Shown here in pieces: positions 17,883 to 30,680 of a DNA stretch of 64,000 bases. The translations under genes and the position numbers were made by a program. Every line of letters begins with the position of its first letter. The first letter of the stretch is position 1. Source of the DNA: Leptolyngbya sp. Heron Island J (GTDB taxonomy: Bacteria > Cyanobacteriota > Cyanobacteriia > Phormidesmidales > Phormidesmidaceae); contig NZ_AWNH01000115.1 of NCBI RefSeq assembly GCF_000482245.1, positions 248,001 through 312,000 on the forward strand. The letters are read 5' to 3'. The notes beneath the pieces are model-generated. The model made no database searches and had not been told where the DNA came from. It saw nothing but the letters and a program-made list of their open reading frames with translations.

Positions 17883-20800
17883 ATGGCGGTTGATAAAGAA
17901 CTTGAAATTAAGCTTCAGTTCCTAGACGAAGCGGATGAGTATCTACAAACCCTGGATGGGGCATTATTGGATTTAGCGCAAAAGGGTGTCTTGCGTAGTG
18001 ATATTGATGCCGCTTTACGCTCATCTCACTCCATCAAAGGTGGTGCCGCCATGATGGGATATGCGCTGCTGAGTGACTTTGCCCATCGGCTTGAAGACTC
18101 ATTGAAGGTGCTTAAGGTCCAACGTGATGGGCTGGTAGTAGATAATGACTTAGAACGATTGCTATTGTCAGCGGTGAATGTGTTGCGTCAGGTAATTGAG
18201 TGCGATCGCAGACAGACACCTCCTGATGAAACTTGGCTCAATGGCACAGCCCTACCTATTTTTGAGCAGCTTTACGAGATCTTGGGAGAGACTGAGCCTG
18301 AGGACGAGAATATCCTGCTGTCATCAGATGAAAATCAAGATATTATCCCAGTCTTATTTGGTACTGAAGTTGAAGGTTGTCTGACTCGTTTAGAATCTGC
18401 CATTTCCAGCCAAAGTCCACAGCTACGTGAAGAAGTCGATATCCTTGCTCAAGAGTTAGGCGGCCTAGGAGAGATGCTACAGCTATCCTCCTTTTGTGAG
18501 CTATGTACTTCAGTTGGGCAAGCTATCCATGGTGCCAGCAATGCTCAGGTGATGGAAGTCGCCCAAGCGGCTTTGAGTATATGGAGACAATCCCAAAATC
18601 TGATTCTAGAAGGCAAAGCTGACCAATTGCCCACAGCAGTATCAGGGCTAAGTTTCGAGGTGCCCGCGACGACTGTTGCTGCCGATCTCTTTAGTGAAGT
18701 GAGTGCAGTTGACGAGCTTTTACCCGCTGATTCTATGCCAGGCATAGAACCGGATGCAGAAGATGATTGGGCTACGATTCTTGCCCAAGCAGAAAATACT
18801 CCAGCTGACCAGGATATTTTTGCTCAAACGACAGACATCTTTCAATCTGTGGAATCACTTGCCTCAGAAGATGTTCAACCGATAGAAACGACTGTTCAAC
18901 CTGCTACTGCTCAAACGGTAGAAACTAAACCAGAAGAGACTGTTCAACCAGTGACACCAGTCGTAGAACCTGTTGGGGAACAGCCTACGGGGCAGGATAC
19001 AACCAAGTCTCAAGCAGAATTTCGTTTCTCTAGCAAAACCAGTGGTGAGACTAACGCAGTCTCAGATGTGGGTCACGATACCACCGTACGAGTTTCAGTA
19101 CGACAGCTCAATGAACTTAACGATTATTTTGGTGATCTAACCATTGAGCGTCATCGCCTCGATAGTGAAGTCAAACGCTTGAGAACATTAGTTACGCTGC
19201 TTCACGAGCGACTACGTTCTTTAAAAGCATCCGAAGAAGATCTGCGCGATGTCTACGACAAAACATCTAGTGGCAATCAAATGATGCTACCGGCTGCCAC
19301 CAATGGTCACAGTGATGCCGTTGCCCTGACGTTATCTAATGAGGGATTGGGTAGTAGCAATACCTCAGGGTTTGACACGCTGGAGATGGATCGCTACGAC
19401 GAGCGACACTTGCCCTTCCGTGACATGATGGAAACTGCGGTAAGACTGCGAGAAGTTGCCGATGATATTGAAATTAGCGTCGATACAGCAGAACAATCGT
19501 CGCGAAATTTACAGCGCACTACTCGTCAGCTGCAGCGCAATCTCAACCAGCTGCGCATGCGACCCCTATCGGATATTACCAATCGTTTTCCTCGGGCATT
19601 ACGCGAGCTGTCTCTGGAATTTGGTAAATCGGTAGAACTTAAAGTAGAAGGCGATAAGACGCTGATTGACCGCAATATTTTAGAGTCGCTCAACGATCCG
19701 TTGATGCATATTTTGCGCAATGCCTTTGACCATGGCATTGAGACACCCACTGAACGTATAGCTGCTGATAAGCCAGAGCAGGGCACTATTACCATCAATG
19801 CGCAACAACGTAGTAGCCGTACTGTGATTACAATTCAAGATGATGGTCGCGGTATTCCCCTCGATAAAATTCGTGCCCGTGCTAAGGAAATGGGATTAGA
19901 TGAGTCTCTCTTAGCCACGGCCAGTGAAACCGATCTACTCTCATTGATTTTTGAACCTGGCTTTAGTACGGCGAGTCAAGTGACAACGCTCTCTGGCCGT
20001 GGTGTGGGCATGGACGTGGTTCGCAACAATCTTGAAGAGATTCGTGGTGATATCAGTGTTTCCACTAAGGCTGGTCAGGGCTCAACCTTTACCATTTCAG
20101 TTCCTTATACCCTTTCTGTTACCAGGGTTTTATTAGCTGAGAGTAATCGTCTGCCAATGGCTATTCCAACGGATAACCTCCAGGAAATTACTGTAGTTTC
20201 TGATGAAGAAGTGTATGACGATGGCGGTCGCGAAATGTTTACTCGTAACGGTCAGCCGATCCGGTTAATTCGTATGGCTAAATGGCTTGCCTTCAACTGT
20301 GCGCGTCACATTGAGAGCTTGGAGATGAGTCCTAATGTAACCGTGCCAACGGTATTAGTATTCCGTTATAACGAGCAGCGGTTTGGTTTCCAGATTGACC
20401 GCTCATGGGGAGAACAAGAAGTAGCGCTGCGACGAGTCGAAGGAACGGTGCCGATGCCGACAGGCTTTAATAACTGTACTATTTTTGGGGACGGTCAAGT
20501 CGTTCCGTTGCTCAACGCACCAGAGTTTCTGCGCTGGATATTGAGCTGTGAAGGTTCGAATATTAAAGAAGCTGCTGTGCTATATGGTAATCCTCTACTC
20601 AGCGGCAAGCTCAGTGACCTACAGCCTAACTCAGGCGCGAATGCTGCTAAACAGCCGACGATCATGGTGGTGGATGATTCGGTCAATGTTCGACGGTTGC
20701 TGGCCTTAACCTTAGAAAAGCAGGGGTATCGGGTCACCCAGGCAAAGGACGGTCTGGACGCGCTAGAAAAACTGGATGCTGGTTTGGATATTAACGCGAT

Positions 20801-21029
20801 TGTGTGTGATATCGAAATGCCTCGTTTAGATGGATATGGCTTTTTGGCAAAACTTCGGTCCCACGAACGTTGCTCGCATATTCCCATAACGATGCTGACA
20901 TCCCGGACAGGCGATAAGCATCGTCAACTGGCAATGAAGCTGGGAGCCAATGCTTATTTCTCAAAACCCTATCGGGAGCAGCTGTTGCTTGATACCCTAG
21001 CTCAAGCAACAGCTGCTCCTTTGAATTAG
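17883..21029 (+). CDS. CheA-type hybrid histidine kinase (PixL/PilL-like)
   Basis: 1048 residues. Order: HPt domain with phospho-acceptor His49 (SSHSIKGGAAMMG), a long acidic Gln/Thr/Val-rich linker (about 240-390), dimerisation helices (LRMRPLSDI), and a HATPase domain with N-box N604 (NDPLMHILRNAFDHG), G1 DDGRG starting D653 and G2 GRGVGMDVV. A CheW-like domain follows, then a C-terminal receiver with D976 (VCDIEMPRLDG). It is the kinase of the upstream receptor and presumably phosphorylates the two regulators at the head of the cluster. It is the last gene of the five. Confidence 0.94.
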   Translation: MAVDKELEIKLQFLDEADEYLQTLDGALLDLAQKGVLRSDIDAALRSSHSIKGGAAMMGYALLSDFAHRLEDSLKVLKVQRDGLVVDNDLERLLLSAVNVLRQVIECDRRQTPPDETWLNGTALPIFEQLYEILGETEPEDENILLSSDENQDIIPVLFGTEVEGCLTRLESAISSQSPQLREEVDILAQELGGLGEMLQLSSFCELCTSVGQAIHGASNAQVMEVAQAALSIWRQSQNLILEGKADQLPTAVSGLSFEVPATTVAADLFSEVSAVDELLPADSMPGIEPDAEDDWATILAQAENTPADQDIFAQTTDIFQSVESLASEDVQPIETTVQPATAQTVETKPEETVQPVTPVVEPVGEQPTGQDTTKSQAEFRFSSKTSGETNAVSDVGHDTTVRVSVRQLNELNDYFGDLTIERHRLDSEVKRLRTLVTLLHERLRSLKASEEDLRDVYDKTSSGNQMMLPAATNGHSDAVALTLSNEGLGSSNTSGFDTLEMDRYDERHLPFRDMMETAVRLREVADDIEISVDTAEQSSRNLQRTTRQLQRNLNQLRMRPLSDITNRFPRALRELSLEFGKSVELKVEGDKTLIDRNILESLNDPLMHILRNAFDHGIETPTERIAADKPEQGTITINAQQRSSRTVITIQDDGRGIPLDKIRARAKEMGLDESLLATASETDLLSLIFEPGFSTASQVTTLSGRGVGMDVVRNNLEEIRGDISVSTKAGQGSTFTISVPYTLSVTRVLLAESNRLPMAIPTDNLQEITVVSDEEVYDDGGREMFTRNGQPIRLIRMAKWLAFNCARHIESLEMSPNVTVPTVLVFRYNEQRFGFQIDRSWGEQEVALRRVEGTVPMPTGFNNCTIFGDGQVVPLLNAPEFLRWILSCEGSNIKEAAVLYGNPLLSGKLSDLQPNSGANAAKQPTIMVVDDSVNVRRLLALTLEKQGYRVTQAKDGLDALEKLDAGLDINAIVCDIEMPRLDGYGFLAKLRSHERCSHIPITMLTSRTGDKHRQLAMKLGANAYFSKPYREQLLLDTLAQATAAPLN

Positions 21030-21423: not shown

Positions 21424-21789
21424 TTACTCTGTGGCGTATTTTTTCAAGATTTCGAGGGAAACTGTTTTCAAGGCAGATTCATGGGTTGCTGCTAGCACTA
21501 CCTTAGGAGCAAACCCGGCCTCGTGGGCTTCCTTCCAGCGACTAGCACACAGACACCAGCGATCCCCTGGCTTGAGACCCGGAAACTGATACATTGGCAT
21601 CGGTGTACTTAAGTCATTGCCCTGGGCCTTGGTATAGGTTAAAAACTCTTCTGTAACTTCAGCACACACAACATGGGAGCCTAAATCATTAGGGCCTGTA
21701 TTACAGGTACCATCACGGTAAAATCCGGTCATCGGACTGGTACAGCACACTTGTAAATTCTCACCCAGAACGTTTCTTATAATTGCCAT
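21424..21789 (-). CDS. DUF2237 family protein
   Basis: 121 residues. It matches the widespread DUF2237 family: NVLGENLQVCCTSPMTGFYRDG, CNTGPNDLGSHVVCAEVTEEFL and GDRWCLCASRWKEAHEAG are its conserved blocks, rich in Cys. The biochemical role is unknown. It lies 12 bp after the stop of the next upstream gene (21802-22689), so it is the last gene of a probable three-gene operon with that gene and a lipoprotein. Confidence 0.85.
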   Translation of the reverse strand: MAIIRNVLGENLQVCCTSPMTGFYRDGTCNTGPNDLGSHVVCAEVTEEFLTYTKAQGNDLSTPMPMYQFPGLKPGDRWCLCASRWKEAHEAGFAPKVVLAATHESALKTVSLEILKKYATE

Positions 21790-21801
21790 AGTTTGAAAAA
21801 T

Positions 21802-22689
21802 CTAAATCTCAGCAACAGCCCGCTCAACCAGGCGACGAGTCAGGGTTTGTACCCCTGTATGCTCATAATAATTGATGGAAATATCTAAGAAGGCACCAAA
21901 GTAGTCCATCTTATCGTCGGCGATGTCCACAAATGTTTTGAGGTTAGCAACAACGCTTTGGGGTGTAATACCTTTAGACTCCACAAAGTTGCCCATCCAG
22001 CCTTTGACCGATTCAAAGCTAGCACCAATAAAGGTCAGCTGATCGGCGGTTTTAGCGCCAGGTACAGCTTCTTTAATGGCCTTAAACGCTGGATTGTTGT
22101 CCAGGTCCTTAGGGGTGAGATTTCCTAATACGGTTTCGGTTTGCTTAATAAAATTAGGTCCCAGGGGCACGAGACCGTCAAAGCACACCAGGGCTGCCAT
22201 CCGGATTAACGACTCGCCGCCATAGTCTCCCAGGGCTTTAACAAAATCCCCAACACTGTCACCAGGAATGCCATTGATTTTGCAAAAAGCGACAATTTCG
22301 GTTACTAATTTCATACACAGATCAATGGTCTGAGCTTTGTCAGCCTTGGGCGTGAGGCGGTTGACAATTGACAGAAAGCGCACATTTTCGGTCATTTTGT
22401 TGGCCAGAGCGGCTTGACCTAACGCTCGCCCAGTAGAATCAATTGTCTGATAGAGCCACATCGCTCTTTGATACCCTTCAGACTTATCGTTATAAAGCTG
22501 AAGGGCTCGCGCACCGATTTGTTCAATGATGGCGGTGTCACTCTCACCAGTTACCTGGCGAATAGTGTTTTCAAAGCCAACCAGGTTTTCCCATTCTCCA
22601 GGCAAAATTCTGTCCAGGGAGCGGAGGGCAAAAACCGTGAGGTTTTTCTGCGGTAACTCGTTAACTAGCTCATAAATTGACTTGCTCAT
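21802..22689 (-). CDS. Conserved all-helical protein of unknown function
   Basis: 295 residues from the ATG at 22689, which has GAGG eight bases upstream; a TTG at 22725 would overlap the lipoprotein gene. The sequence is predicted mostly alpha-helical, without signal peptide, membrane helix or catalytic motif that I recognise (SIYELVNELPQKNLTVFALRS at the start, GPNFIKQTETVLGNLTPKDL in the middle). It is the middle gene of a probable operon: lipoprotein, this gene, DUF2237. Confidence 0.7.
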   Translation of the reverse strand: MSKSIYELVNELPQKNLTVFALRSLDRILPGEWENLVGFENTIRQVTGESDTAIIEQIGARALQLYNDKSEGYQRAMWLYQTIDSTGRALGQAALANKMTENVRFLSIVNRLTPKADKAQTIDLCMKLVTEIVAFCKINGIPGDSVGDFVKALGDYGGESLIRMAALVCFDGLVPLGPNFIKQTETVLGNLTPKDLDNNPAFKAIKEAVPGAKTADQLTFIGASFESVKGWMGNFVESKGITPQSVVANLKTFVDIADDKMDYFGAFLDISINYYEHTGVQTLTRRLVERAVAEI

Positions 22690-22721
22690 GGTGATGTCCT
22701 CGTAGAGTGGCGCAGGCGATA

Positions 22722-23246
22722 TCAATTGACGAGCTGAGCAAGACCAGCAAGGTCAAATTTTTCGAGCCAGGCTTCACGGTCAGTTGGGGTAAATGCTGGA
22801 TCTCGTGAGAGGACTTTGACCTGCAGCCGATCGGCAACCAGGAGACTCGTGGCTGTGCTGCCAACCTCCACGACGGGATACCCTGACAAGGTGCGATCGC
22901 TATTTTCATATTTGGCAGCAGCGCTGGGATTAGAGGTTGTATCCGATACGGACACCATCGCTAACGTATTCCCATCCTGCTTGATCTTAGCTTCAGCAAA
23001 GCCATCCTTCTCTTGGGTGTAAACCCTCTCGTATCCGTCAGCTGTGGGGAAGAACTTGTTGAACTCACCGCCATTGATAACAGCTTTTTTATCAACTGCG
23101 ATCGCAGGTGTTTGTGCTTCAATTTGCTCCCATTTTGCCGTGTCGCTGGGTTGAGAGGCATTGAGCTGGGTGAACTGACAGCCACCGACAACCAGCAGCC
23201 CGACAAGCACAAGAGTACCGATGGCGATGGAAACTTTACGCAACAT
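22722..23246 (-). CDS. Putative lipoprotein of unknown function
   Basis: 174 residues. Hydrophobic core VSIAIGTLVLVGLLVVGG is followed by Cys23 (VGGCQF), a lipobox. The mature part contains FNKFFPTADGYERVYTQEKDGFAEAKIK and a repeatedly beta-patterned segment, without recognised enzyme motifs. It lies 32 bp upstream of the helical protein gene and is first of the probable three-gene operon. The surface or periplasmic location of this member contrasts with the cytoplasmic look of the other two. Confidence 0.72.
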   Translation of the reverse strand: MLRKVSIAIGTLVLVGLLVVGGCQFTQLNASQPSDTAKWEQIEAQTPAIAVDKKAVINGGEFNKFFPTADGYERVYTQEKDGFAEAKIKQDGNTLAMVSVSDTTSNPSAAAKYENSDRTLSGYPVVEVGSTATSLLVADRLQVKVLSRDPAFTPTDREAWLEKFDLAGLAQLVN

Positions 23247-23430
23247 GGGATCAGGAAGTATTGCTAACTACGAAACAGAATCAGGACCAAAAATACAGAT
23301 AAACTCTATCGCCATTTGTCGAACGTCAGATAACCGGTGAATATTTTGTAAGCATTCGTATCGTTATTAGATGCAATTTTTGACAGCTGGAGGTCCATAA
23401 TAGGGCGATGACTTAAATCGACGAGCCGTT

Positions 23431-23685
23431 ATGCCCAGGAAACCAAGCGAATTTATTGTCCATCTGCTGTTTGATGGTGGCCACCATGAGGAAGTAAGGT
23501 TTTCATCGATTCAAGACTTTCAAAAGTGGTACAGCAATGAGCTGATGCCCAAATCTTCTTCAGACGACTTTATTAAGGTGCCACTGCCAGAGATTAATCC
23601 AGGCGAATATATGGTGATTCGGCCTTCTCGGCTAGTGGCGATTCGAGTTGAGCCACAGTTTAGCTCCAGTGTAGAGCGCTTCTAG
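23431..23685 (+). CDS. Small conserved protein of unknown function
   Basis: 84 residues, soluble, starting MPRKPSEFIVHLLFDGG. Two beta-like strands, a helix (SSIQDFQKWYSNEL) and a C-terminal strand pair (PGEYMVIRPSRLVAIRVEP) suggest a compact alpha/beta fold. I cannot assign a family. The next gene (mltA) starts 10 bp after its stop, so the two are probably cotranscribed. Confidence 0.68.
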   Translation: MPRKPSEFIVHLLFDGGHHEEVRFSSIQDFQKWYSNELMPKSSSDDFIKVPLPEINPGEYMVIRPSRLVAIRVEPQFSSSVERF

Positions 23686-23695
23686 GTGACGGATA

Positions 23696-24850
23696 GTGAT
23701 ACTGAGTGGACGGTGGCTACGGACAGCCTTGATGGCAGCTGCGGTTTGCTATCCAGTATCGGCAGCAGCAGTACCACTGGTTCGGGGCAACTGTCACGTT
23801 GAGTTTGTCCCTGAGCTCTGTTTGGGGTACGACGCTCAGTTTGGTCAAGAACGCACTCGCTTGCTCCAATCCATTGATTACAGCCTGGATTATTTGAATA
23901 CGGACGCGGCTGTAAGTGCCTATGCCGAGTATCCGATATCGAGTATTACTCGCGAACGGGTGCAGCGTAGTCTGGTGCGGTTTCGTCAGCTGGTGGCCAC
24001 CAGTCATTCGGCGCAGCAGCTGCAGCAAGCCGTGCGTCAGGAGTTCGAGTTTTATCGCTCCGTGGGTAATGACGGTCAGGGTCAGGTGGAATTTACCGGC
24101 TACTTTGAGCCTACCTACACCGCCAGTGCCGTACCCACAGCAGAGTATCGTTATCCCCTATACGGCTTACCGACGGATCTCGATACCTGGCCACTACCCC
24201 ACCCCACCCGGGCTGAACTAGAAGGCACTGATGGATTGCAGGGTGAAAATGGGCCGTTAGCGGGTTTAGAACTAGTCTGGCTGCGAGATCGACTAGAAGC
24301 ATTTTTGGTGCAAGTACAGGGCTCAGCACGGCTGCAGCTAACGGATGGCTCAGTGATGTCCGTGGGCTATGCCGGGCGCACAGAGTATCCCTACATCAGC
24401 ATTGGCCGAGCCTTAGTGAAGGATGGCATTGTGGAAGAATCAGAGTTATCCCTGCCCGTGTTACTGGACTATTTTGAGCAGCAGCCAGAGGCTCTGGATC
24501 GCTATCTACCCCAAAACGATCGGTTTGTATTCTTTAAGGCCACGGGGGGCTCACCACCAATTGGCAATCTGAATGTGCCGGTGACGGCGGGGCGCTCAAT
24601 CGCGACCGATAAAACTCTGATGCCACCCGGAGCATTGGCTTTGATTAGTTTGGAGCTGCCGATACCGACTACAGCCGATAGCTGGCAGTCCATACCCGTC
24701 AATCGCTATGTGCTGGATCAAGATACTGGTGGGGCGATTCGTGGTCCCGGTCGGGTGGATATTTTTGTGGGTACAGGTATTGAGGCTGGAGAACAGGCAG
24801 GTCTGATTAATACGAGTGGGCAGCTATATTATTTGCTACTGCGTGAATAG
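23696..24850 (+). CDS. mltA: Membrane-bound lytic murein transglycosylase A
   Basis: 384 residues. MltA cleaves the glycan strand of peptidoglycan, leaving 1,6-anhydromuramic ends. A signal peptide (LRTALMAAAVCYPVSAAAVP) is followed by the MltA barrel (FTGYFEPTYTAS, LVWLRDRLEAFLVQVQGSARL, VGYAGRTEYPYISIGRAL) and the C-terminal 3D domain with the catalytic Asp in QDTGGAIRGPGRVDIFVGTG. Unlike the E. coli enzyme no lipobox is evident; the Cys in CYPVSA lies inside the hydrophobic core. The start is GTG. The 3' end overlaps the convergent ABC-like gene by 44 bp. Confidence 0.9.
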   Translation: MILSGRWLRTALMAAAVCYPVSAAAVPLVRGNCHVEFVPELCLGYDAQFGQERTRLLQSIDYSLDYLNTDAAVSAYAEYPISSITRERVQRSLVRFRQLVATSHSAQQLQQAVRQEFEFYRSVGNDGQGQVEFTGYFEPTYTASAVPTAEYRYPLYGLPTDLDTWPLPHPTRAELEGTDGLQGENGPLAGLELVWLRDRLEAFLVQVQGSARLQLTDGSVMSVGYAGRTEYPYISIGRALVKDGIVEESELSLPVLLDYFEQQPEALDRYLPQNDRFVFFKATGGSPPIGNLNVPVTAGRSIATDKTLMPPGALALISLELPIPTTADSWQSIPVNRYVLDQDTGGAIRGPGRVDIFVGTGIEAGEQAGLINTSGQLYYLLLRE

Positions 24851-25580
24851 GGGGAATGTCCTTCGGGATGTACGTGGGGACGTGGATGGAGAGGTGGCGC
24901 TCGCAAATTTGTTGGCGCAGGTCATCCTGATCAAACCGGCCAATAAAACACGTATCCTGAGCCTTGCGATATTCAATTAACGTGATCAGACGCTCCTGAT
25001 TTTCTGGTTCCAGACGATTGATCGACCCATCAATCACAATGACGCTGTAATCAATGGCAAATGTACGCGCCAGATTGACTTGATGCAGTTCATTAAGAGT
25101 CAGGTGTTTAGGCGCTTGGTGCCACAGACGTCGCGCTAGACCCACCCAATCTAAAACATGACGGCTTTGAGCCTCAGCCTGTGTACGAGTCAGACCTAGC
25201 TCAAGTAATTGACGGGATACGCAATCGAGCACCGTAGATTCACGGCGCAGTGTCTCACTCTGGCCCAGATAGCCAATGGTGCGGGCTTGGATTTGGTCGA
25301 TTTGACGATGGGAGAGTTGGGGTAAGTTGAGCCATCGCCCCTGGTGATCGACCCAAATAGCGCCAGCGTCGATGCGAATATGCCCGCTCAGAGCATCTAG
25401 CAATAATCTGTTGGCTGATGGGACATTGCTATGTAAGTGAACACATTCTCCACCTTTGAGGGTAAAGGAGATATCTTCTAGACCTGGAAAGCGCTCTTCA
25501 CCAGGCTGAGCAGCGCTTTTATAAAGTCTCTCTACTTTGAGTTTGATGTTGTTATAGCGAATTTCAAAAGGAGTTTTCAT
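24807..25580 (-). CDS. Degenerate ABC ATPase related to PhnL (predicted inactive)
   Basis: 257 residues aligning end to end with PhnL-type ABC domains: LEDISFTLKGGECVHLH, GAIWVDHQGRWLNL, RTIGYLGQSETLRRESTVLD, VGLARRLWHQAPKHL and ARTFAIDYSVIVIDG. However, the Walker A segment (about 49-58) reads LHSNVPSANR, with no glycine loop and Asn in place of the Lys. The signature is LTLNELHQV rather than SGGEQQR. Walker B keeps D184 but has Gly instead of the catalytic Glu, and the switch His is missing. Q107 of the Q-loop survives. ATP hydrolysis is therefore unlikely. The frame is intact, so this may be a working pseudoenzyme. No other phn gene is nearby. Confidence 0.8.
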   Translation of the reverse strand: MKTPFEIRYNNIKLKVERLYKSAAQPGEERFPGLEDISFTLKGGECVHLHSNVPSANRLLLDALSGHIRIDAGAIWVDHQGRWLNLPQLSHRQIDQIQARTIGYLGQSETLRRESTVLDCVSRQLLELGLTRTQAEAQSRHVLDWVGLARRLWHQAPKHLTLNELHQVNLARTFAIDYSVIVIDGSINRLEPENQERLITLIEYRKAQDTCFIGRFDQDDLRQQICERHLSIHVPTYIPKDIPPIHAVANNIAAHSY

Positions 25581-25598
25581 AGGAGGTGCTGAGGTGAG

Positions 25599-25703
25599 AA
25601 ATTTAGCGATTGCTGATTTAGGGGATGAGTTGATCTACGGTTTTTTCTATTTGACGGTTGCTTACAGCTCAAGCCATCGCGAGGATCAGCAATGCCGAAA
25701 TTT
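25599..25703. repeat. MITE-like element, copy A
   Basis: 105 bp bounded by imperfect 19-bp inverted ends, AAATTTAGCGATTGCTGAT and the complement of ATCAGCAATGCCGAAATTT (16 of 19 matching). The left interior (TTTAGGGGATGAGTTGATC) and right interior (CATCGCGAGG) match the copies at 29841, 44832 and 48311. No ORF inside. It lies just upstream of the PhnL-like gene start. Confidence 0.8.
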
Positions 25704-26167
25704 AATCAATGGCAGCTATCGCCCTGGTCGCGCCTGAGCGATAATTGCCTGTTGTTTAGAGCGAGCCTGCGTCGTTAGTTGGTCGCCATGGAGGACACAG
25801 CGAGCCCTCAAATTAGCAACAGCGCGGATCGTAAATTTGAAAAAAATTATGGGCCAGGCTATTACCCTGGAGCTTTATCCGTGGCCTCTGTAAAAAATTG
25901 CTAGTACTCTAGCTGCAAATACACCACTACTGATAATCAATGTGTAGCACCCATCTCAGTAGAATACCTGAAAAAATTTGATTCCAGTGCTCAGTCAGCG
26001 GGATCTTTTTGAAGCCTTTAAACTAGATGTCCGGACTTCTGTATCACTTTTGACACACTTTTGACAGAAGTAGACTGTTTTTTTGTCAGCGAGCGGCGAC
26101 GATGATCGTTCACAATGGATCAACCTGAAAATATCGCCGTTTTTCACTATTTTCAGAATCAGGGATT
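25704..26167. other. Intergenic region upstream of the ABC exporter
   Basis: 464 bp without a gene. It contains a perfect tandem duplication of CACTTTTGACA at 26045-26066, giving two TTGACA promoter-like hexamers 11 bp apart, about 100 bp before the exporter start. The remainder shows nothing recognisable. Confidence 0.5.
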
Positions 26168-27937
26168 ATGACCTACCCGCTCCAACGTTTGTTGACCTAT
26201 GGCCGCCGCTATCGTCGCCGGATTTGGCTGGCCAGTTTAGCCTCAATTTTTAATAAACTCTTCGATTTGGCTCCGCCCGTGCTGATTGGTTTGGCGGTGG
26301 ATGTAGTGGTCAAACAACAGGACTCGCTGATCGCCAATTGGGGGGTATCCAGCATTCGCGGACAGTTTATGTGGCTGTCGGTGCTGACGGTGATTGTTTG
26401 GGCCTTGGAGTCAGCCTTTGAATATGCCTACAACTGGATGTGGCGTAACCTGGCCCAGTCGATTCAGCACGACCTGCGTTTGGATGCCTACACCCATTTG
26501 CAGTCCCTGGAATTAGCGTTTTTTGAGGAGCGGAGTTCCGGCGGGTTAATGTCTATTCTCAATGACGACATTAATCAGCTGGAGCGGTTTCTTGATCGGG
26601 GGGCCAATGAAGTACTGCAGGTGGTGACCACCGTACTGCTGATTGGAGGAGCCTTTTTTGTCATGGCTCCTAAGGTGGCATGGATGGCGATGCTACCGAT
26701 GCCGTTTATTGTGTGGGGTGCGATCTCATTCCAAAAATATCTGGCTCCCCGCTACGCTGAAGTGCGTGAACGGGTGGGACTGCTCAACGGTCGTCTGGCC
26801 AATAACCTGACTGGTATTGCCACCATTAAGAGCTATACCGCTGAAACCTATGAAAATCAGCGGGTGGCGGCGGACAGTGAAGCCTATCGCCAGAGTAATC
26901 GTCGGGCGATTGCCCTAAGTTCGGCCTTTATTCCCCTGATTCGCATTCTGATTTTGATCGGGTTTACGGCTACCTTGCTGTACGGCGGTTTGGAAGCGGT
27001 AGCTGGCAATCTGGCTGTGGGTACCTACAGTGTGCTGGTATTTCTAACCCAGCGGCTACTATGGCCCCTGACTCGTTTAGGCGAAACTCTGGACCAGTAC
27101 CGGCGGGCTATGGCCTCCATTGATCGCGCCATGGATTTACTGGATACTCCTGTCGCGATTCGTCCTGGTGACTACCGGCTGCCGGTCAGCAACGTGCGTG
27201 GAGAGATCGCCTTCAAAGATGTTACGTTCGCCTACCATGACCGCCTGCCGGTGGTGCAGCATCTGACCCTAAAGGTCCCGGCGGGCAAAACGACGGCTAT
27301 TGTTGGCGCAACAGGATCTGGCAAAAGTACGCTGGTCAAGCTGTTGCTGCGTTTTTATGAAATTAGCAATGGGCAGATTACTCTGGACGGTCACGATTTG
27401 CGACAGCTGCATCTAGATGATTTACGTCAGGCCATTGGGTTAGTCAGCCAGGATGTATTTTTATTCCATGGAACGGTGGCTGAAAATATTGCCTACGGTA
27501 GCTTTAGTGCTGCACCTGCTGACATTGAGAAAGCGGCCAAACTAGCAGAAGCCCATGAGTTTATCCAGCAGCTTCCCCAGGGGTATGACACCATCGTGGG
27601 AGAGCGTGGTCAGAAACTGTCAGGCGGCCAGCGTCAGCGGCTAGCCATTGCTCGTGCCTTGCTAAAAGACCCGCCGATTTTAATTTTGGATGAGGCGACA
27701 TCGGCGGTGGATAACGAAACTGAGGCGGCAATTCAACGATCCTTAGAAAAAATCACCTGCGATCGCACCACGATTGCGATCGCCCACCGTTTATCCACGG
27801 TCCGCAATGCCCACTGTATTTATGTCATGGATCAAGGACAGCTAGCAGAGTGGGGAACCCATGAGGAACTTTTGGCCCGCGATGGCATCTATGCAAATCT
27901 ATGGCGCGTACAAATGGGAGAGCGGGTACTGGTGTGA
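26168..27937 (+). CDS. ABC exporter half-transporter (MsbA/MDR type)
   Basis: 589 residues: an N-terminal six-helix membrane domain (about 20-310) fused to a nucleotide-binding domain. Walker [10 protein letters not shown] (about 379-387), Q-loop SQDVF, signature LSGGQRQR (about 484-491), Walker [13 protein letters not shown] and switch AHRLST are all intact. It should function as a homodimer, exporting lipids, drugs or peptides; the substrate cannot be read from sequence. ATG preceded by AGGG. Two HIP1 sites lie 17 bp apart at 27759 and 27776 in the ATPase region. Confidence 0.93.
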
Positions 27938-28039
27938 TCGATGACACTGAGCTGATCCCAGTATATGTAGGCTCAATGTACCTCTACAGAGTTAACTTGT
28001 AGACTTCTACAAGCGCCCCGTAAATTCCGGACTTAATCA

Positions 28040-28112
28040 TGGCAATTGGGATAGGGGAGTAGCGTTAACCGATCTGAAGGTTGGCGTCATCCGTGTGTTT
28101 CCTTAATTATCC
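28040..28112 (+). promoter_or_regulatory. Possible riboswitch-like leader resembling part of the yybP-ykoY (Mn) motif
   Basis: GGGGAGTAG at 28054-28062 matches the conserved loop of the yybP-ykoY Mn2+ riboswitch. It is followed by an 8-bp stem (CGTTAACC 28063-28070 with GGTTGGCG 28079-28086, two G-U pairs) and then TCATCCGTG. GGATA (28049-28053) could pair with TATCC (28108-28112), which touches the downstream ATG. The element is shorter than the known riboswitch and the downstream gene is not an Mn exporter, so this is only a candidate. Confidence 0.25.
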
Positions 28113-28904
28113 ATGGAAAGAAATAGAGCTTACTCTATAGCGGTCAACCATCATCCGATATCCGCTCAATCCCCTGGCTGGCTACCTGTCACCTCAGGTA
28201 TGTTAGCGCTCACCTGTGGCTTGTCAGGGTCGGCTGCCAATGCTTTGGCAGAGCTGCCAGCAACATTCGCTACACCTGAGGCTCCTGCCAATGAACTTGA
28301 AGGTGTAAACGATAGCACTACAGAGGTTGATCCTCCCAAGGCAGCTGCTGTAGAACCTGCGGCTTTAAGGCCCAGCTTTTCTCGCCTAAAACTAAAGGCT
28401 CAAAAACTGTTGCGATCGCAGTCCCCAACGGCTCCAACCCTATCGGTTGAACGTTTGGAAGGCCATCGTCGAGATTTGCATCGGCGGTCCAATGAAGTTG
28501 AATCGCAGCTATTAGGGTTACAGCAGCTGCTCTCCATCCAAGCCTATGGCAAGAGTTTTGCCGATCGACTCCTGGCGGAGGATGCGGCCTATCAGGCTAA
28601 ATTACAGCAGTTACAGACGCTAGAAGCAGAACTCCATGGAGCGATGAAGCAAGCTGATGCAGCAACGCTGAGCCAGCTGCAAAATCGTTTGGATCAGACT
28701 GATAGAGAACTCCGGCAGATTGCCCAGACCCAGCTGCAGCGCTATATCGATCAGGCTCAGACGAATTCTACCCTGGGCCTATGGCAAGAGCCGATGTATC
28801 GACAATCCTTGCGCTGGTTGATGGAACATACTCACGAGCGACATCAGCTGAATGCTCGTCAACAGACCCTGGCTGATACCTTGGTTGCGATCGCTGCAAA
28901 CTAG
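28113..28904 (+). CDS. Hypothetical secreted coiled-coil protein
   Basis: 263 residues. A hydrophobic stretch ending in an Ala-rich AANALAELPA suggests an exported protein, with a long polar N-region (about 27 residues); an ATG at residue 30 (28200) would give a more standard signal peptide. Residues about 120-260 are heptad-patterned, Gln/Leu-rich helix (VERLEGHRRDLHRRSNEVESQ, QLQTLEAELHGAMKQ). No family recognised. Its TAG shares the CTAG palindrome with the stop of the convergent CoA-binding gene. Confidence 0.62.
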   Translation: MERNRAYSIAVNHHPISAQSPGWLPVTSGMLALTCGLSGSAANALAELPATFATPEAPANELEGVNDSTTEVDPPKAAAVEPAALRPSFSRLKLKAQKLLRSQSPTAPTLSVERLEGHRRDLHRRSNEVESQLLGLQQLLSIQAYGKSFADRLLAEDAAYQAKLQQLQTLEAELHGAMKQADAATLSQLQNRLDQTDRELRQIAQTQLQRYIDQAQTNSTLGLWQEPMYRQSLRWLMEHTHERHQLNARQQTLADTLVAIAAN

Positions 28905-29329
28905 CGCTGATTTTTTTGCAATTCAATTTTCAAACAGGCATCCATGACCACTTGCCAGCCATGGTCCACAGCCTGGTGGGCCACAGCAGCATCGTAAATA
29001 CCTAACTGGGTCCACAAGCACTTCACCTCAGACATCGTCCCTATCGTCAGCAGTTCGTTCATCAAGTCAGGCAGAAACTCACTACGACGGAATACATTCA
29101 CCATGTCGATGGGGCCTGGCACATCAGCCAGACGGGCGTAGCAGCGTTGACCATCGATTTCTTTAGCCGCAGGGTGAACCGGGTAGACAATGTACCCTTG
29201 CTGACGCATGTAGCGAGCGACCTGGTAGCTGGGGCGCTGGGGTTTAGGAGAGTGACCCACAACAGCGATATACTTCGTTTTGGCCAGCACACGTTCAATC
29301 ACAGCTGGGTCTCGATAGGACGTGCTCAT
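28901..29329 (-). CDS. CoA-binding domain protein (YccU-like)
   Basis: 142 residues, a single Rossmann-type CoA_binding_2 domain: YIAVVGHSPKPQRPSYQVARYM, YPVHPAAKEIDGQRCYARLADVP and VKCLWTQLGIYD are the usual conserved blocks. The family resembles the CoA-binding half of succinyl-CoA synthetases, but the stand-alone protein has no settled function. It is divergent from the YjbQ gene across 29 bp, so promoters must overlap. Confidence 0.88.
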   Translation of the reverse strand: MSTSYRDPAVIERVLAKTKYIAVVGHSPKPQRPSYQVARYMRQQGYIVYPVHPAAKEIDGQRCYARLADVPGPIDMVNVFRRSEFLPDLMNELLTIGTMSEVKCLWTQLGIYDAAVAHQAVDHGWQVVMDACLKIELQKNQR

Positions 29330-29358
29330 GACATCTCACTCGTAAGTATCGCGGGCCT

Positions 29359-29799
29359 ATGCAAATTGTTTCTCACTATCTGAAATTTGATACAGCTGAC
29401 ACAATTGATATCCTCAACATTACCTCAGCCATTCAGCAACAAGTCGAGGTGGCTGCCATCCGCCAGGGACATGTGGTGATTTTTTCTTGTCATACCACCA
29501 CAGCATTAACGGTGAATGAACATGAAGAGCGCTTGTTGACCGATATCAAAACCTATTTACGTCAGCTGGCTCCACCGCAGAACCGCTATTTACACAATGA
29601 CCTGCATTTACGAGATGTCCCTCCTGATGAACCCATCAATGCCCATTCACACCTGATGGCCATGACTCTGGGCAATAGTGAAACCGTGCCGATTGTCAAT
29701 GGTGAGTTGGCGTTGGGGACCTATCAATCGGTGATGCTGGTGGACTTGGATGGGCCGAGGCAGGGGCGGCAGGTATTGATACAAATTTGTGGTGTGTAG
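29359..29799 (+). CDS. YjbQ/UPF0047 family protein
   Basis: 146 residues, full length for the family. Conserved segments are FSCHTTTALTVNEHEERLLTDI, YLHNDLHLRD, NAHSHLMAMTLGNSETVPI and LVDLDGPRQGRQVLIQICG. Members show weak thiamine-phosphate synthase activity and are sometimes annotated as secondary thiamine-phosphate synthase; the physiological role is uncertain. Confidence 0.9.
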   Translation: MQIVSHYLKFDTADTIDILNITSAIQQQVEVAAIRQGHVVIFSCHTTTALTVNEHEERLLTDIKTYLRQLAPPQNRYLHNDLHLRDVPPDEPINAHSHLMAMTLGNSETVPIVNGELALGTYQSVMLVDLDGPRQGRQVLIQICGV

Positions 29800-30093: not shown

Positions 30094-30327
30094 ATGCTGG
30101 TCACCAGTGAATCCCTAAAACAAGATATTGAAAAACTCACTGACGATCAGCTTCAGCGAGTTGCAGAATTTATTGCTTTTCTTCGATTTCAAGAAAAACG
30201 AAGACGCATAGAACTCAATCCAGCACTTTTGGCTCCTCTTACGAATGAGTTTGCACAGGAAGACCGTGCTCTTGCAGAATCAGGGATGGATGACTATGGG
30301 GACATGCTTGCTCAGGAAGATCAATAA
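30094..30327 (+). CDS. Putative type II antitoxin of a MazF-type pair
   Basis: 77 residues, helical: an N-terminal segment (IEKLTDDQLQRVAEFIAFLRFQEKRR) of the DUF2281 type followed by an acidic C-terminal tail that would wrap the toxin. The stop and the toxin start overlap by one base (TAATG at 30325-30329), classic for toxin-antitoxin operons. Such antitoxins normally repress their own promoter. Confidence 0.75.
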   Translation: MLVTSESLKQDIEKLTDDQLQRVAEFIAFLRFQEKRRRIELNPALLAPLTNEFAQEDRALAESGMDDYGDMLAQEDQ

Positions 30328-30680
30328 TGCCCAAATCGTTGAAACGCGGAGAAGTCTGGTTAGCAAATCTTGATCCGACTCAAGGTTCTGAACAAGCAGG
30401 TATTCGCCCTGTCATAGTTTTCCAGAATGACATCGTTTCACGATTTTCCACAACAACCATTACTATTCCCCTTACAACGAATAAGCGTCGTGCTTCTTTA
30501 CCTATTTGCGTGATGATTGAACGAGGAGATGGTGGACTAACACAAGATTCTGTGGCACTTTGTTTTCAACTTCGAGTGCTAGATAAAAAACGCTTACTTA
30601 AGCGATTGGGACAACTCAAGCCAAAGACAATTACTGAACTTGAAGAAGTAGTCTTAGTAACTCTAGGATACGAGTTATAA
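30327..30680 (+). CDS. MazF-family (PemK-like) endoribonuclease toxin
   Basis: 117 residues, normal length for MazF. Conserved GEVWLANLDPTQGSEQAGIRPVIVFQND at the N-terminus carries the catalytic Arg (GIRPV), and a second block with TTTITIPLTT supplies the Thr residue. The family cleaves single-stranded mRNA at short motifs. The frame is complete, so it is probably active. It follows its antitoxin with a one-base overlap. Confidence 0.88.
   Translation: MPKSLKRGEVWLANLDPTQGSEQAGIRPVIVFQNDIVSRFSTTTITIPLTTNKRRASLPICVMIERGDGGLTQDSVALCFQLRVLDKKRLLKRLGQLKPKTITELEEVVLVTLGYEL

Follow-up and report, generated by a model that had tools for sequence, protein, structure and literature searches.

PhnL is the second of the ABC ATPases in C-P lyase, and few protein domains are as abundant as the ABC ATPase domain. 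Within ABC transporters, degenerate sites are a familiar feature. For example, in the type I ABC exporters a degenerate site is paired with a working site inside the transporter. For PhnL of E. coli, it was reported that the E175Q exchange abolishes phosphonate use, that the N-terminal beta hairpin docks on PhnK, and that Arg82 stacks on PhnK (PMC9947105). The gene analysed here encodes a PhnL-like protein in which nearly all ATP-handling motifs are replaced. It lies in a stretch of 64,000 nucleotides from Leptolyngbya sp. Heron Island J, and this whole stretch is called the window in the following.

The coding sequence occupies positions 24807-25580 on the minus strand, and the open reading frame gives 257 amino acids from an ATG start without an internal stop. 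Its best curated match in NCBIfam is TIGR02324 (PhnL) with 114.7 bits (E 4.1e-33), far ahead of the runner-up FtsE (50.9 bits), and TIGR02324 matches all six members of the pseudo-PhnL family described below. The score of the window protein stays below the curated cut-off of this PhnL equivalog, 256.3 bits, and the true PhnL of the same genome reaches 343.8 bits. The best solved structure is E. coli PhnL (7z15, E 1.3e-27), aligned without gaps over 203 residues (26-228 of the query), and a profile search gave the same PhnL structure at E 3.9e-34. The ABC domain profile PF00005 was matched with 32.4 bits (cut-off 25) over profile positions 1-133 of 137. The ABC fold is probably kept in the family, and we base this on the gapless 7z15 alignment because AlphaFold2 on the six-sequence alignment gave a mean pLDDT of 49 and a pTM of 0.40. 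Among other collections, the PHROGs search returned a single weak generic ABC match, the phage collection distant ABC matches only (best 29% identity) and the plasmid search ordinary-looking PhnL at about 30% identity; the window had no Rfam match, and PADLOC gave none either. In one tree the family stands on a long branch beside the genus's own PhnL (support 96/98), in a second tree it does not, and the topology with the cyanobacterial PhnL united and the family outside was not rejected (p-AU 0.356). The placement relative to the PhnL of the same genus thus differs between the trees.

Residues 22-33 (25482-25517), which correspond to the A-loop and the PhnK-docking hairpin of PhnL, are two residues shorter than in PhnL; the column with the invariant Phe of the cyanobacterial A-loop region is deleted, and the family has lost the Phe, Leu and His columns that 32 cyanobacterial PhnL share without exception. 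The Walker A sequence GASGSGKST of PhnL is SNVPSANRL in the window protein (25404-25430), where the Lys is replaced by Asn57 (25410-25412). Further along, the signature FSGGE has become LTLNE (25089-25103), the Walker B Asp is retained as Asp184 next to Gly185 in place of the catalytic Glu (25026-25031), and the switch His is Asp217 (24930-24932). All these coordinates are on the minus strand. The Walker A Lys, the signature, the catalytic Glu and the switch His are missing in all six family members, with DG, DL, DA, DL, GL and EP as the Walker B Asp/catalytic Glu pair and with Asn, Asn, Glu, Asp and Asp at the switch His column of the orthologues. The original prediction had described PhnL-like sequence across the whole domain, an open frame, the replacement of these four key sites and a conserved GAIWVDHQG patch, and all of this holds; in the patch, WVDHQG is largely kept, and W76, H79 and Q80 are invariant. 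Its claim of a conserved Q-loop does not, since Gln is present in only two of the six members: Gln107 of the window protein (25260-25262, minus strand) and its counterpart in G007, the other four orthologues having Cys, Cys, Pro and Arg. From the alignment, the window protein lacks the ATPase motifs expected of PhnL, the catalytic Glu included, and both ATP binding and ATP hydrolysis are likely to be absent. Since E175Q abolishes phosphonate use, a protein without this Glu should not replace PhnL.

Orthologues were found in five other genomes of this genus of filamentous cyanobacteria (G003-G007; 79, 78, 72, 60 and 56% identity). In all five, which are the other genus genomes with the locus assembled, the gene is open and syntenic and the same motifs are missing. 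When named genomes were scanned, five loci with matching identities turned up, in Leptolyngbya sp. PCC 7375, Adonisia turfae, Leptothoe kymatousa and two MAGs. The apparent absence from the two remaining genomes, G002 and G001, does not show a loss of the gene. The G002 contig breaks off where the flanking MltA-like gene ends, and the best candidate for the exporter gene on the other side is a 183-base contig-edge fragment, which places the locus in a gap of the assembly; in G001 both flanks are missing. Both genomes are therefore uninformative on presence. No family-level match was found outside the genus among 63 genomes of the order and 388 genomes of the class. In the class-wide search the family members reach 475-527 bits, while no other match exceeds 168 bits. 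When 34 of these lower-scoring loci were extracted for motif inspection, the switch His was present in all 34, the signature in 33 and a Walker A with Lys in 32, and a few cases of Walker B were missed by the strict pattern. Within these searches the pseudo-PhnL family is confined to the genus. One of the two Walker A exceptions is a truncated record. The other is the true PhnL of G007 (L051, G007:C780:3855-4517), which has SGSGNST, not SGSGKST, with the signature, Glu and His intact; either a real change or a MAG error is possible.

Selection was evaluated over 238 codons of the six genes with a one-ratio codon model, after removal of gapped columns and of the C-terminal region that includes the overlap with the MltA-like gene; the lnL of the custom codon model equals that of IQ-TREE (-3262.8). 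The estimated omega is 0.166 (2dlnL 339 against omega 1), and on the window's own branch it is 0.158 (2dlnL 21 against 1); the exact values are soft because the deeper branches have neutral-unit lengths of about 1-2 per codon, with synonymous divergence near-saturated, but the departure from neutrality is firm. Applied to other genes, this model yields an omega of 0.076 for the true PhnL in the genus; among the flanking genes, omega is 0.036 in the exporter, 0.084 in the MltA-like gene and 0.082 and 0.122 in two further neighbours, so pseudo-PhnL evolves faster than the true PhnL and than the four flanking genes compared. DNA conservation over the six genomes starts abruptly at the ATG; the upstream DNA is diverged, and no nameable conserved block was seen near the start in the six-genome comparison. 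The original prediction had suggested selection for a role other than that of an ATPase, and had held that a gene unique to this genome and free of purifying selection would be a decaying pseudogene. Six syntenic open genes with the same motifs replaced, together with the omega, speak for such a role, the loss of ATP binding being read from the motifs. By the same evidence the protein would count as a pseudoenzyme, that is, a homologue of an enzyme with its catalytic residues lost and under purifying selection.

Constraint is distributed unevenly along the gene, and the regional contrasts are descriptive because the regions were chosen after inspection of the alignment (branch lengths were fixed). 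The most constrained part is the N-terminal segment of residues 1-21, MxxPFxxRYNNIKLxVERLYK (25518-25580, minus strand), with invariant columns and an omega of 0.041 (2dlnL 22 against the gene mean), and it is largely new relative to PhnL. Residues 166-183, HQVNLARTFAIDYSVIVI (25032-25085, minus strand), follow with 0.048 (2dlnL 16.6 against the gene mean), which may simply reflect a buried core, and residues 70-93 with 0.098. On the other hand, omega is 0.311 for the hairpin at 22-33, 0.245 for Walker A, 0.328 for the Q-loop and linker, 0.360 for the signature and 0.309 for Walker B and the D-loop. Pooled, the codons of the former ATP motifs have an omega of 0.279 compared with 0.151 elsewhere, a difference of about 13 in 2dlnL. 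Constraint is relaxed at the former ATP sites.

Because the ATP motifs are nearly all lost and yet selection persists, a role in protein binding rather than an enzyme role is probable. The explanation that we favour, and consider rather more probable than the rest together, is that of a PhnL-derived pseudo-ATPase confined to the genus, which now serves as a non-catalytic protein-binding module and whose partner probably lies outside the C-P lyase core. In the genus ancestor, a copy of phnL would have settled between the genes for the MltA-like protein and the ABC exporter; it would then have lost the catalytic Glu and switch His as well as the A-loop, Walker A and signature, and would since have been retained in this degenerate form under purifying selection. 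The ABC fold would be kept and ATP hydrolysis gone, and the protein would act through binding, as a scaffold or regulator, with a partner that contacts a surface to which the conserved N-terminal segment contributes. A wider reading is a free-standing bacterial ABC protein that has abandoned ATP, binds proteins as an adaptor by means of a new, conserved element at its N-terminus and no longer depends on the ancestral C-P lyase. We offer it tentatively, and would stop a little short of giving it even weight.

The PhnL ancestry would fit a regulator of C-P lyase, in which the dead subunit would pair with PhnK or with the true PhnL and restrain or tune the complex in a dominant-negative or stabilising way. 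In agreement with the original prediction of no phn operon nearby, there are no phn genes among the neighbours searched (21424-29799 and 17883-21029), and the gene is not encoded together with phnGHIJK, its neighbours being the MltA/3D-domain and ABC exporter genes. The window's genome (G000) has its C-P lyase cluster on a separate contig, C59, with PhnG, PhnH, PhnJ, PhnK, PhnL and PhnM in a row, and the ATPase motifs of this PhnL are intact. The ORF between PhnH and PhnJ, in the place expected for PhnI, had no NCBIfam match at the threshold applied. Further on, the C59 cluster also includes genes for a Phn-HD family oxygenase and a phosphodiesterase-like protein (L048, 11982-13426). PhnJ was detected in five of the six carriers (G000, G003, G004, G005 and G007), which fits a regulator of the complex, as does the Arg at residue 92, the column of E. 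coli Arg82: it is invariant in all six members, is His in cyanobacterial PhnL, and could be a hint of some remaining PhnK-like contact. Dead paralogues that regulate live partners are also known elsewhere (PMC5201418, PMC3663545). PhnI and PhnJ were not found in G001, G002 and G006, however, and G006 carries the pseudo-PhnL gene with no PhnL found either; this absence is possibly a matter of assembly because the genome is only 75% complete. The hairpin that should dock on PhnK is, by alignment, shortened and without its invariant residues. The lack of a detectable C-P lyase in G006 and the shortened, altered hairpin make the C-P lyase core an improbable partner, and with the gene outside the phn cluster we judge a C-P lyase regulator unlikely.

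A nucleotide or another ligand might still be bound in a remodelled pocket, with a sensing role for the protein. The new Walker A loop is partly conserved, S51, P54 and L59 being invariant in the family, and its omega is clearly below 1. Such a pocket would have to work without the Lys, the adjacent Ser/Thr, the A-loop aromatic residue and the signature, and the pooled former ATP motifs evolve faster than the rest of the protein; a ligand-sensing role is thus distinctly improbable.

The position of the gene raises the question of an accessory subunit of a neighbour, either the product of the MltA/3D-domain gene (23696-24850, plus strand) or the ABC exporter. Pseudo-PhnL lies between these two genes wherever both flanks are assembled; both neighbours were matched in four genomes and one side in G007, where the contig is short. 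This adjacency says little about function when the entire surrounding region is syntenic within the genus. Moreover, both neighbours are encoded on the other strand, and the MltA-like gene occurs without pseudo-PhnL in relatives outside the genus, so we regard an accessory subunit as very unlikely. The 3' ends of pseudo-PhnL and the MltA/3D-domain gene overlap convergently by 44 nt (24807-24850), a length equal in all six genomes. A conserved C-terminal SY was rejected as a functional motif as it overlaps the MltA-like gene, and its conservation may come from constraint on that gene. Just upstream of the MltA-like gene, 23431-23685 (plus strand) encodes an 84-aa protein without a Pfam match. 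It is identical in G004 and G005, shows 71-96% identity in the remaining genomes of the family that were checked, and has this position beside the MltA-like gene in each genome where the stretch was available. Two adjoining proteins without a Pfam match at 21802-23246 (minus strand) are 98% and 85% identical to G004. A 117-aa ORF at 30327-30680 (plus strand), MazF/PemK-type by eye, has no counterpart among the ORFs matched in the G004 and G005 stretches.

A decaying pseudogene that is open by chance would explain the higher omega when compared with the true PhnL and the faster evolution than that of the four flanking genes, but it is scarcely credible because open syntenic orthologues persist in six genomes despite near-saturated synonymous divergence, under purifying selection that is seen even on the window branch alone, and with conservation that begins at the ATG.

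To our knowledge, a soluble bacterial family in which every member is nearly free of ATP motifs and yet under selection is uncommon, and no description of such a PhnL relative was found in the open-licence literature. As a syntenic case within one genus, the pseudo-PhnL family allows the loss of catalysis and the shift of constraint to be followed, and it offers a simple test case for ABC subunits that gain non-catalytic roles. Its closest curated family is PhnL, with which it aligns gaplessly over 203 residues of 7z15, and it has the WVxHQ patch and RLW in common with cyanobacterial PhnL. It differs from PhnL in the four missing ATPase elements and the shortened hairpin, in about 25 extra C-terminal residues, in its place outside the phn cluster and in a score of 115 bits against the 256-bit cut-off. 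The degenerate sites of type I ABC exporters (PMC7756269) likewise combine lost catalytic motifs with an ABC domain retained by selection, whereas the window protein is a free-standing subunit that has lost nearly all of its own motifs. Trypanosome prozyme (PMC5201418) and deoxyhypusine synthase (PMC3663545) share with it the course of duplication, catalytic loss and retention; their folds are unrelated, and in our case G006 has no detectable live paralogue.
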